DNA from: Apteryx mantelli
Taxonomy: Eukaryota > Chordata > Aves > Apterygiformes > Apterygidae
Length of the DNA stretch: 64,000 nucleotides
NCBI RefSeq assembly: GCF_036417845.1
Contig: NC_089979.1
Location: 30,128,958 to 30,192,957 of the forward strand
Direction: 5' to 3'
Shown: piece by piece, positions 59,081-63,635 of the stretch
Numbering within the stretch: position 1 is the stretch's first letter
Layout of the letters: each line of letters opens with the position of its first letter
The notes under the pieces: model-generated
Database searches by the model: none
Seen by the model: the letters and a program-made list of their open reading frames with translations, nothing else
What the model was told of the DNA's origin: nothing
Made by a program: the position numbers and the translations under genes

Positions 59081-59147
59081 CTGACAGTTCCCAGGCATTA
59101 CTGCAAGATAGGTACATTCTGAAGAGATCCTCAGAAATCCTCCTGTT
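59081..59147 (-). pseudogene. MCM3-like remnant, post-sensor helix exon end
   Basis: NRRISEDLFRMY corresponds to MCM3 DREISDHVLRMH (five identities and mostly conservative changes), followed by a degraded APGE-like end and a donor ctgtcag|gtatgt. Immediately upstream in the same frame is a TGA stop (59,148-59,150), so it is not usable as coding sequence. Confidence 0.55.
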
Positions 59148-59400
59148 TCAATAAATCAGATGGAAATTCTCAAACTATATTTTCCTTATTAGAGTTCTTG
59201 CTTCAGAATCCAGAATAATACTTTTCTTTTTCTTTAAAATCTCTTTCCAAATTTCAGAGAAGTACATCTATATCCAACCTAGCTTTCCATTTTATTAAGG
59301 GACCAGCTTTTAATTTTATTGAAGGAGCAACTTAACAGATAGCCCTTTGGTCCAAAGCCCAGCAGATCCCCTAGGAAGTCACTGAAGTGCCATTATACAA

Positions 59401-59475
59401 CTGCTTTGAATTTTCATGGCTCCACACACACTATATTTTGATAAGCAATAAGGTATTTGCAGCTGTTGTGCAAGC
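59401..59475 (-). pseudogene. MCM3-like remnant, AAA+ sensor region (with stop)
   Basis: The frame reads ACTTAAN, seven residues, a TAG stop (59,431-59,433), then CVWSHENSKQ. The spacing from the AAN to the EN exactly matches MCM3 SVLAAANP ... TPMENIGLQ, but few intervening residues survive. Confidence 0.4.
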
Positions 59476-60294
59476 TCTTTCAACATGAAGGCGTTGGGTA
59501 ACAAATCATGACAACTCCCATCTGTAATGACTTGGTTAAAATGCGAATAGTGCAGTAGAGATGAAGCATTGCTTCAATACTGCCAGTAAGTAAGTTTGCA
59601 AGCCGTCCACTTCAAGAGAAAAAGGACATATTAAAACAGAAAGACTCGAAAAGTCTTGGGTCGAAAAGAAATGGGTTTCAGGTTAACTCATTTTTAAAAC
59701 AAGTTACCAAATATGTGATTAGATCTCTACAGTGTAGAGCTGAAGCGAAGTGTAGAAATGAAGAGCTTGATTTATGCGAGGAAGCTGATACCTCTGCCAA
59801 GAGCTTTTGTGTATCAGGTTAGCATTATCAGGTTAATGTAACTTAATTATGAGCACTGAAAACCAAGCATTTAGAAATGAAGTCACAACTGAGCAGCCAC
59901 TGTGCCTACAAGTGACAGCAGTGGAACAGTTCCATCAGCCCGAGCGATATGCTAAAGCCCATTTGTGAAATCGGTAGGTGTTTCGCCTGAATAAGCAGTG
60001 CAGGATTAGACTCTATTGCACATCATGACTGCACTAGCTAGAAACATAGAACAGATGTCAAGTAAATAGGGAAGTGTGGGACAAAACAGAAATAATTGTA
60101 AAAATGTGCCCAAGGATAAAATAAATTGATCCTAAGACACTAACAAACATCCTTGTATAAGACAAAATGAGTCTTTGTACTGGTTTGGCTTTTATTTTCT
60201 TGCTAATATTGCATAACAGAATTACACTGGCACGATGAGGAGGGGGGGTAATAAAATAACTTATCAATGCACTATTAACTCTACATGCTCTTAC

Positions 60295-60448
60295 CTAATA
60301 ATAAGATATTGATGTCTCCTTTAATGTGTGTCCCATTGTTGAGAACTTTCTCATTACCTTGAAGAAGCATACACAAAATGGCTTTTTTAATATACTCATG
60401 GCCATGAACACTTGGTGCTAAAGACTTGCTTAAATGGTCAAAGATATC
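60295..60448 (-). pseudogene. MCM3-like intact exon B
   Basis: Fifty-one open codons plus one base, starting [19 protein letters not shown] and ending [12 protein letters not shown], the entry to the AAA+ domain just before Walker A. It aligns over 52 residues without gaps at about 71% identity to remembered human MCM3. Acceptor ttaaatag|gat, donor ttattag|gtaaga. Only 92 bases of intron separate it from exon A, and the phases agree. Confidence 0.92.
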
Positions 60449-60545
60449 CTATTTAAGAAACAGGAAACACTTACATTGCACATTACCAACATTAGAACGG
60501 AATCTCATTATCCATTAGCCAGTATTAGTGCAATTTATAACTTAC

Positions 60546-60666
60546 TTTAGTTTGAGCTTTGCAGAATTTCTTGATCTTTGCCACATCATCAGCTGAGAAT
60601 GTGGGTGCTATTTCTTTGCTCATCAGTTTGATATTATTAGCCAACATTATTGTCTGGGGTATTCTC
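60546..60666 (-). pseudogene. MCM3-like intact exon A
   Basis: One base plus 40 open codons: RIPQTIMLANN, then IKLMSKEIAPTFSADD and VAKIKKFCKAQTK. Over the last 36 residues 20 are identical to remembered human MCM3 with no gap. The donor is a consensus aaa|gtaagt (gtaag at 60,545-60,541); the acceptor is ctgaag|g. This segment links the N-terminal domain to the AAA+ module. Confidence 0.88.
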
Positions 60667-61052
60667 CTTCAGATGCAGAGAAATGTCATGAGATTATTAA
60701 ATAGATTAACTATTAAATACATACTGGACTGTTGTCTTCATAACACAAAAAGCTGCTTAGGAAAGAGAAAGTACAAGCAGAATCAGATTCAAAGAAATTA
60801 TTAGATTTGTCTATTTTATCATGGCTTAGTGAGTGAAATCTGCACTGAAAGAGGATTTAATGAAGTTTCAACATCAGAATCCAAAAGAACTAGAAATACA
60901 TAGACAGCTTTGGGATTTCATCTCTTCTCTACCCCCCTGTATACCAGTGGACTTGATATCTGTATTCTGTGAAGCAAGAGACACATATTTTGGAGAGAAT
61001 GTATTTTGGAGTTGGGACATCTCTAACTTTGAAGGAAAGATAGACAGGACAA

Positions 61053-61114
61053 GTCATTTTTTGCTTTGTCTTCAAAAGGCTCATCAGACACTTGGGCTTT
61101 GTCAGATGCTACTC
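61053..61114 (-). pseudogene. MCM3-like remnant, N-terminal domain end
   Basis: One frame reads DEPFEDKAKND, close to MCM3 DDDLVDKAKPGD, and the bases before it resemble the EKAPAGQLPRS segment in another frame. Short, diverged and frame-broken; supported mainly by position between better blocks. Confidence 0.35.
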
Positions 61115-62010
61115 TAAACACTCATCAGACAACTCTGGCAAACCACACACAATCAGAAGAAGTAATCATCTCAGAAACCAAATTTTTGAAACAGAACGCA
61201 GGGAAACAACACTTTGACTTCTAGTTTCTAAAACTATTGATCATTTGTTAGCTTACAGTGCCCAGCATTTCAAAGGGAAATGCTTGTAAGAAAGTTGACT
61301 ATTCAGAAGTGCCATAAAGAAATGCTTTGTGGAGGGGAGAGTACAATCAATATAAATTATCTAGAGAAAAAAATGAATATAATTCGAAGTCTGCACATGA
61401 GCAATAACCCCCCCCCCCCCAAGGCATGGTCCTACTTCCCAGGTAAGAGAACTTAAAAAGAAAGTAAATCAATGCTTCACCACACTGTGCTGAAAGGAAA
61501 AGCATGGGAATTGAGCCTGGAAGGAGCTGGGTCTCTGAGACCAGGCTGAGCTCTCACAGGCAGACCAAGCACATCTTCCATTTCATAAATTAACCAAATT
61601 CCAGCTTAAGCTGGCACAGTTTTGCCCCAAATACTCCTAATGGACCTTCATGTTTTGATGACATCTGCCTCAGATATAACAACTTCTACACGTAAGGCAA
61701 AGCTCTGCTTTGGGAAGCTCTCTCTGATGCTAAATTTGGCCATGCCAGTGTCAGCTCTAAGCCATGAATCTGCACCAACCATGCACGAAGAGCCTTTCTG
61801 TATGGGCTGGTCTCATGGAAGAGCAGCAAGACTACTCAGTGAAATTTGGCTTTCATTAGGGAGGATCCAGAGCAAGGATCCAAATATCTTGGCAAAAGGA
61901 CATGGAAATGTTGGGACATTAGGGTGGAAACAGTTGATGTCAGCTCCACAAACAGCCCAGCAGACACCCCTGCTGGGCAGCGAGAGCGGCAGACACCAGC
62001 AACCACAGGC

Positions 62011-62088
62011 GAGCACTGTTTCTGGCTCCAAAAAAATAGGATCTTCTGGAGTGGATCCTTAAGGAAAAACTATCCAAATCTCACTGCT
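62011..62088 (-). pseudogene. MCM3-like remnant, OB-fold region (with stop)
   Basis: Translation gives SSEIWIVFP, a TAA stop (62,059-62,061), then GSTPEDPIFLEPETVL. It can be aligned to the MCM3 stretch around LTTLVAFPSSS and TKDEENNPLETEYGLS with small gaps. The match is weak alone but falls in the right place and order. No clear splice sites. Confidence 0.35.
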
Positions 62089-63439
62089 CTGATGGCTTGA
62101 AATTTCTACTTATTCCTAGTTAAAAAGTTCCTCATCACACCCTTGGCTGCTAAATCTGAAGCTTCCCTGGTGCAAGGGGGCAGTGGGATTTTCCTGAAGC
62201 GTGCCCTGTGCCACCTCCAGACGTGCTCTCCTCCCAGGAGTCCACATCTGCGCTCAGAGTCATGGCACGAGGATGCTGCCCAGCTGCTGCTTCACCAGGC
62301 ACCTCCTGGATGCTGAAACCCGGTCACCCTAGCTGCACTGCTGGGCTCCCATTTGCCTAATCCTGAGCAAGCCGGGTATGTTAGAGCAGGTTGCACCAGG
62401 TAAAGGTATCGAACAGCACCCTAATGGCATTCGCTGGCAATGCTCTTTAAACCTTGTTGGATATACAGCACAATTTTTGCACGACCCTTTGAGGGATACA
62501 TCTGGAGGAAGTTGTTTCAGAGCACAGTATGTAAGTATCCCAAATAGAGCAGATGGTAATGAACTTTTGTTCTCATATAATATGGTGGTAACCCTGCATG
62601 GATGTTTTTTGTATTAATTACAGAAGAAAATTATAACAGAATAAATAACACTTGAAACAATGCTGACAAGAATTTTTTAACCCATTCACTAACAAACAAA
62701 CCCTCCTATTTTATATCAAGTTCATTCCAAGCCAGTCCTGACAGAAGTTAAGAATACTGTTTGCTGATATGTCCGTTTGAAATCGATTTGCAGTGACTTG
62801 CAAAAGGGGTTGTCAATCAAAGACAGCTTGATGCAAGGATATTTTTATGACAGTTCACTCCTCCTGCGCACTCTCTAGAAGAAGTTAATTTTTCTGTAAA
62901 TGCCTTTCATGCAATCCTTGTTCTCTTGCAAATAGAACTGTTTGCTCTTGGGATATGCAATATTTTAATATTTCCCATCGTAGGGAAATAAGGAGGACAG
63001 ATGGCAACTCCTACAGTCACTATCACAGAATGGGACAACAAGGAAGGGAACAGTGATGTGCTACAGCACTAATGGAAGTTGCCTATATTATTATTTCAGT
63101 GCCTGTGTTACTCTAAGTTTCTGTTAATCCACTGATGCGTATGAAGACACCCACTTGTGAACAGCCATCCTGCCAGAGATCCCTGCTCTCCACCTAACCC
63201 CTGGCGGCTGGCATGGCAAGGACGACTCCTGACTGCAGCCATGTGTTTGGGATTAGTTGTTCTCCTCAAAGAGCTGGGACCCAACATGACAAGCAGCACT
63301 GGCAGAGCAGAGGGAAAATGTTATATTAATACTTACCGTTGCAAATTAAAAAATGACAAATAACGCATATTGCTTTTCATACAGCTGAGAGACAAAACAT
63401 AGTCAGAGTTACAATAAAGCTTAAATCCAAAATAATTAC

Positions 63440-63635
63440 ATTCTGTCACAATTCCTTCCACACAGCCCAAGCTACCAAGGAAACGAGCCGATAGCAGATG
63501 AGGAGAGACATGATTTGCTTGAAAGCTTCCTTCAAACCCAACACTAAAATTTCCAAATGTTTGAAATCAGGAGCAACTAAATCTTTTAATGCTCTCTGAA
63601 AAGCAATCAGCTCACCAAATGCATCAGTCAACAGC
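63440..63635 (-). pseudogene. MCM3-like N-terminal exon with frameshift
   Basis: The first part reads DAFGELIAFQRALKDLVA, close to the MCM3 helical N-terminal segment. About four residues are then missing, and after a Gly-Leu (GL) pair one base is lost, so the remaining match continues in another frame: NHVSP...CVEGIVTEC, with 15 of 26 positions identical to remembered human MCM3 without gaps. Likely acceptor ttggag|g at 63,636 and donor gaat|gtaatt at 63,439. The frame change makes a full-length product impossible without a compensating change. Confidence 0.82.

Follow-up and report, generated by a model that had tools for sequence, protein, structure and literature searches.

A broken, intron-bearing relative of maternal-type MCM3 next to MEP1B in the genome of the kiwi Apteryx mantelli

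The MCM3-like locus and its exon remnants

A broken MCM3-like gene with introns lies on the minus strand between MEP1B and GAREM1 in the genome of the kiwi Apteryx mantelli, in a stretch of 64,000 nucleotides (C2:30128958–30192957) that was analysed as a whole and is called the window below. It is very probably an intron-bearing relative, most likely the orthologue, of the maternal-type MCM3 represented by Xenopus maternal mcm3 and zebrafish mcm3l, and a unitary pseudogene in this genome. The assembly searched (1.504 Gb, 408 contigs) also provided 14 exon queries, cut from the exons of its own canonical MCM3, and the letters of Xenopus maternal mcm3 (residues 50–657) were taken from PDB alignments. 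The 14 queries were used in a frameshift-tolerant scan of positions 44001–74000, which takes in 10 kb beyond the window, with seven 30-kb stretches serving as nulls.

The scan returned clear remnants of six of the 14 exons (3, 5, 6, 7, 8, and 10), all on the minus strand in the order of the gene, from position 63634 down to 54435. In the exon 3 remnant (63438..63634; MCM3 residues ~65–134), 45 of 65 aligned residues matched Xenopus maternal mcm3 exactly, and the score was 201 against a null maximum of 48. Exons 6 (60546..60656) and 7 (60295..60448) were open frames, with 33/37 and 44/52 residues identical to the same protein and scores of 167 and 239 against null maxima of 38 and 39; the final codon of the exon 7 alignment reaches two bases into the donor. 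The remaining three scored lower: a partial exon 5 (62158..62314; 21/52 residues; 70 against 40), the 3′ part of exon 8 (57493..57588; 14/32; 54 against 39, repeated in a second run), and exon 10 (54435..54554; 21/40; 76 against 40, recovered again by an interval test). Searching the window by tblastn with human MCM3 and Xenopus maternal mcm3 gave colinear minus-strand matches at about 63.6, 62.3, 60.65, 60.45, and 57.5 kb, and one at 54.5 kb with the human query only, together with weaker scattered matches among those listed (E up to 10). The pair of exons 6 and 7 matched Xenopus maternal mcm3 with an E-value of 2e-37, and exon 7 was also picked up by the Pfam MCM model in a whole-genome search (E 1e-10).

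An earlier note on this DNA, made from its letters, had described colinear minus-strand MCM3 blocks, two of them open and the others frameshifted or stopped, and both the arrangement and the positions of the open exons were confirmed. The extent it gave, 59081..63635, was right at its upper end, where the clear remnants begin. At its lower end, no MCM3 match above noise was found in 59081–60280, and the remnants continue well past it, down to exon 10. The best score there was 26, for residues 346–458 in 59081–59720, so low that this block was rejected as exons 8–9, and when wider intervals were searched for these two exons, their best matches either fell outside 59081–60280 or scored 23.

No match was accepted over 44001–74000 for exons 1, 4, 9, 11, 12, and 14, and exon 13 was tentative in the first scan, so that none of the C-terminal exons 11–14 was accepted. 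With canonical letters, candidates for exon 13 (53021–52909) and exon 11 (46077–46017) scored 38 and 37 against null maxima of 37 and 36, but neither was reproduced when Xenopus letters were used; another exon 11 candidate, at 65557, scored 38 against a null of 42 with Xenopus letters and was out of gene order. These three were rejected. A tentative exon 2 candidate lies past the window end, at 65892–65782 on the minus strand, with two stops and two frameshifts; it scored 46 against a null maximum of 51, and 6 of 48 nulls were equal or better.

Four of the six clear remnants carry lesions. Exon 3 has a frameshift and has lost five residues, exon 5 is heavily decayed with one frameshift and one codon insertion, exon 8 contains two in-frame TAA codons, and exon 10 has been frameshifted twice. 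For exon 8, the Walker A part was not found, and there was no better match in 57600–60290. The exons of the Walker A and Walker B ATPase motifs are thus not present in open form, exon 8 having two stops and exon 9 not being found. With some of the ATPase core missing (exon 9 and the Walker A portion of exon 8) and the rest of it interrupted by stops or frameshifts (exons 8 and 10), no working helicase subunit is expected from this locus. Intact remaining exons, which the earlier note had held would make the gene functional, were not found over 44001–74000.

The introns were kept. An intron of 97 bases with gt...ag ends lies between exons 6 and 7, whose boundary is identical to that of canonical MCM3, in agreement with the earlier statement that this is not a processed copy. 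Disabling lesions, retained introns, and no intact copy among the candidates scored elsewhere in the genome characterize the locus as a unitary pseudogene, a call whose "original locus" part is based on the tree and on gene order in one genome.

Affinity with maternal-type MCM3

The canonical MCM3 of the same genome is located at C3:134.485–134.495 Mb, without a stop or other lesion in the 13 exons compared, and is 70–97% identical to human MCM3 per exon over residues 7–657. The maternal-type locus therefore coexists with canonical MCM3 in one genome and, as the earlier note had supposed, is not itself the orthologue of the canonical gene. In two assembly searches, for which the best 30 and 35 candidates were scored, identity to Xenopus maternal mcm3 did not exceed 59% at any other place, and these places are by inference other MCM genes; no second maternal-type copy was present among these best-scored candidates. 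The DNA of exons 6–7 occurs once in the genome, and apart from it only canonical exon 7 matched (73%).

The closest sequence found was that of Xenopus laevis maternal mcm3 (PDB 8q6o chain B), to which exons 6–7 align without a gap. Unlike the kiwi locus, with its ATPase exons missing or broken, this is a subunit of 807 residues in a helicase of solved structure. Exons 6–7 gave 162 bits against Xenopus maternal mcm3 versus 124 bits against human MCM3, and of their 89 residues 77 were identical to the Xenopus maternal protein, 61 to the genome's own MCM3, and 58 to human MCM3. The kiwi and human canonical genes resemble the locus in their introns and in having meprin genes in the wider neighbourhood, but are unlesioned in the exons compared and branch apart from it in the tree. 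Exons 3, 6, and 7 hold 26 sites at which human and the genome's own MCM3 agree and differ from Xenopus maternal mcm3; the locus has the Xenopus residue at 18 of them, that of MCM3 at five, and neither at three.

Maximum-likelihood trees with five tips, including Drosophila as outgroup, grouped the locus with Xenopus maternal mcm3 with 66% support for exons 6–7, 96% for exons 3, 6, and 7, and 100% for all remnants. Placement with the genome's own MCM3 was rejected by the approximately unbiased (AU) test for each set in turn (p = 0.001, 2.7e-9, and 2.1e-6), so that, in this five-tip form, the exons do not join avian MCM3, the outcome named in the earlier note as the sign of a recent duplicate.

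Several points weigh against this grouping. With exons 6–7 alone, two other deep placements were not rejected (AU p = 0.38 and 0.09), and with exons 3, 6, and 7 two were borderline (0.052 and 0.058). For all remnants, the other deep placements were rejected by the AU test (0.007 and 0.008) but not by the Shimodaira–Hasegawa test (0.08), and this alignment was guided by the Xenopus sequence and is biased toward a Xenopus grouping. The five tips comprise no Xenopus zygotic, zebrafish, or amniote maternal sequence. In addition, part of the maternal-like sites are common to Drosophila (5/6 in exon 6, 2/4 in exon 7, and 2/8 in exon 3) and are therefore ancestral. On balance, the sequence comparisons point to a maternal-type MCM3.

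The earlier note had tied the locus to the zygotic mcm3 of Xenopus, which was not borne out. Orthology with that gene is very improbable, given the grouping with the maternal form in the trees and the fact that the zygotic type is described, for zebrafish, as nearer to mammalian MCM3 (PMC7179931), the gene of that type here being the one on C3. Nothing in the comparisons, in which Xenopus was represented by its maternal form, spoke in favour of it. A recent duplicate of the genome's own MCM3 would explain the kept introns and the shared exon 6/7 boundary, but it can practically be dismissed in view of its rejected placement in all three exon sets and of the diagnostic sites, most of which follow Xenopus.

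Uneven decay of the exons

The remnants have not decayed to the same extent. Invariant residues were defined as those identical in Drosophila, human, the genome's own MCM3, and Xenopus maternal mcm3, and were counted at aligned positions only, without the undetected exons 4 and 9; each of these two choices makes the decayed exons look better kept than they are. Exons 6–7 kept 39 of 45 such residues and exon 3 kept 25 of 33, compared with 49 of 98 in exons 5, 8, and 10 together (17/40, 14/31, and 18/27 singly). The difference between exons 6–7 and exons 5, 8, and 10 was significant (Fisher p = 1.8e-5), and that between exons 6–7 and exon 3 was not (p = 0.24).

Neutral decay was simulated starting from the canonical exons, with the CpG rate raised tenfold and 150 runs per divergence (d, substitutions per site). 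The observed state was matched at d of about 0.3–0.4 for exons 5 and 8, about 0.15 for exon 10, and 0.05–0.10 for exons 3, 6, and 7. At d = 0.20, 0.25, 0.30, and 0.40, not one of the 150 runs kept the 39 of 45 residues seen in exons 6–7, whereas about 1% did so at 0.15. Decay is therefore more uneven than a single simple neutral clock would produce by chance. CpG hypermutability as its sole cause was rejected, the tenfold rate being insufficient, and so were tandem repeats as a cause of the damage, with one short array present in 46000–64000. No Rfam family matched at the gathering threshold over 52000–64000.

Exons 6–7 code for the linker and for the first AAA+ segment as far as the Walker A loop, and contain no internal stop or indel. 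The exon 6 donor, gtaagt, is consensus, and the 5′ boundary of that exon is altered, with either one phase base missing or the acceptor shifted; exon 7 has both its acceptor (tttcttaaatag before an exonic G) and its donor (gtaaga after an exonic G). With intron 6 removed, an open frame of 89 residues runs on the minus strand from an ATG at 60647 to a TAG at 60281, covering exons 6–7 and the start of intron 7. The open frame over exons 6–7 survived in 17% of simulated runs at d = 0.30, and therefore says little by itself. Differences from Xenopus were conservative in 8 of 12 cases in exons 6–7, 4 of 16 in exon 3, and 14 of 68 in the decayed exons, against 37% expected for random missense change; the excess in exons 6–7 has a p of 0.04, or 0.07 without residue 257.

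Exons 6–7 seem better preserved than would be expected of an ordinary old pseudogene, which counts against the simplest form of the reading given above. Either they were useful after the rest of the gene had died, or the gene died recently and its other exons suffered deletions or rearrangement. In the second case, the other exons would seem old owing to such events and the weak remnants would be partly misaligned. The low neutral divergence of about 0.05–0.10 that fits exons 3, 6, and 7 is consistent with a recent death in this lineage, as is the absence from the scans, as if by deletion, of exons 4 and 9, which are strongly conserved elsewhere. However, exons 5, 8, and 10 each score above the null maximum, on the right strand and in order, and show dispersed substitutions in addition to stops and frameshifts, and we hold a recent death to be possible, if on the unlikely side.

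Continued selection on exons 6–7 in another product, such as a short two-exon transcript with the 89-residue frame or a non-coding element, has the contrast in invariant residues and its rarity in the neutral runs in its favour, together with the lack of internal indels, three consensus splice sites, and a share of conservative differences well above that of the decayed exons. All of this comes from the genomic sequence of one species. Exon 3 is similarly kept, yet it is frameshifted and its differences are mostly not conservative; exon 10 alone fits a divergence near 0.15, at which 39 of 45 kept residues still arise in about 1% of the simulations; the open frame and the conservative excess are both weak signals, the exon 6 acceptor is altered, and a half-domain peptide would have no evident fold. 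Such selection is a tentative proposal, which we rate as improbable. More doubtful still is the fuller sequence of events in which, after the egg-stage MCM3 had died on the way toward modern birds, selection would have kept exons 6–7 as a separate product over a long period that may extend to the present day, the candidates being a short MCM3-derived peptide or an exonic element.

Gene neighbourhood and the probable loss of an egg-stage MCM3

The gene order is a RING gene, MEP1B (plus strand), the MCM3-like locus (minus), and GAREM1 (minus). The first of these is seen as an open frame with a RING-finger first exon (3540..4121, plus strand; E 5e-6, 26.7 bits, just under the Pfam cut-off of 27), which we take from synteny to be RNF138. 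Around it, positions 2001–4000 have a GC content of 0.64, against 0.33–0.48 in the other 2-kb steps, and are probably a CpG-island promoter. MEP1B, encoding meprin beta, lies on the plus strand, where its exons with counterparts in the C3 meprins span 28951..44360; it has astacin exons, MAM, and MATH, and scores 113 bits for meprin beta against 69 for meprin alpha, so that the neighbour was correctly named in the earlier note. On the other side, two minus-strand frames at 76.7–88.3 kb in extended coordinates, one matching CABIT with 124 bits and the other SAM-like with 21 bits against a cut-off of 23, are presumably GAREM1, judging from its architecture.

Two tandem meprin-type genes, whose exons are colinear with those of MEP1B, are found at C3:132949367–132974922, 1.5 Mb from canonical MCM3, and are possibly a duplicated MEP1A. 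In human, MEP1A and MCM3 are both on 6p12. Because a meprin gene lies near an MCM3 gene on two chromosomes, the arrangement suggests that one ancient block duplication, as judged from two gene pairs, gave rise to both neighbourhoods, perhaps in the early vertebrate genome doublings. The double meprin–MCM3 neighbourhood thus offers a testable origin for the two genes.

Zebrafish mcm3l is likened to the kiwi locus by description, not by sequence, as the maternal-type second vertebrate MCM3 of the egg-supplied cleavage phase, and unlike the locus it is a functional gene. Its mRNA is maternal, its mutants show a strict maternal effect with arrest at mid-blastula, and Mcm3l is regarded as the cleavage-stage MCM3 of the helicase, the zygotically expressed mcm3 being the one nearer to mammalian MCM3 (PMC7179931). 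The maternal MCM3 of frog and fish is described as being without the canonical C-terminal nuclear localisation signal (PMC5295036, PMC7179931). In a survey of 37 eukaryotes, two MCM3 proteins were reported only in Xenopus and Naegleria (PMC2667178). Our literature search, with most subscription journals outside its coverage, found no account of this locus in a bird, and its place, state, and uneven decay were not found described. In a 2014 work by Shinya on MCM3 diversification, the maternal gene was reportedly inferred to have been lost in most vertebrate lineages, and a remnant of this kind is to be expected if that is so.

The ancestral gene would have given the egg its MCM3 subunit of the MCM2–7 helicase for the cleavage divisions, as this gene does in frogs and fish. 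That egg-stage role would then have been lost here, and the sole remaining MCM3 would serve both egg and body; orthology by position is what we infer from the flanking genes. The earlier note spoke of a possible loss in birds, for which the basis is one genome. The locus would be a physical trace of the loss of maternal MCM3, and a ruin that still has its flanking genes makes the loss of an egg-stage MCM3 traceable across vertebrate lineages. Comparing the RNF138–MEP1B–GAREM1 interval across birds, crocodilians, turtles, and lizards would date the death of the gene and reveal any tie to altered early cleavage. Cleavage in bird eggs has remained fast, and a loss of the gene in a bird would therefore speak against a requirement for the special MCM3 subunit in rapid cleavage.

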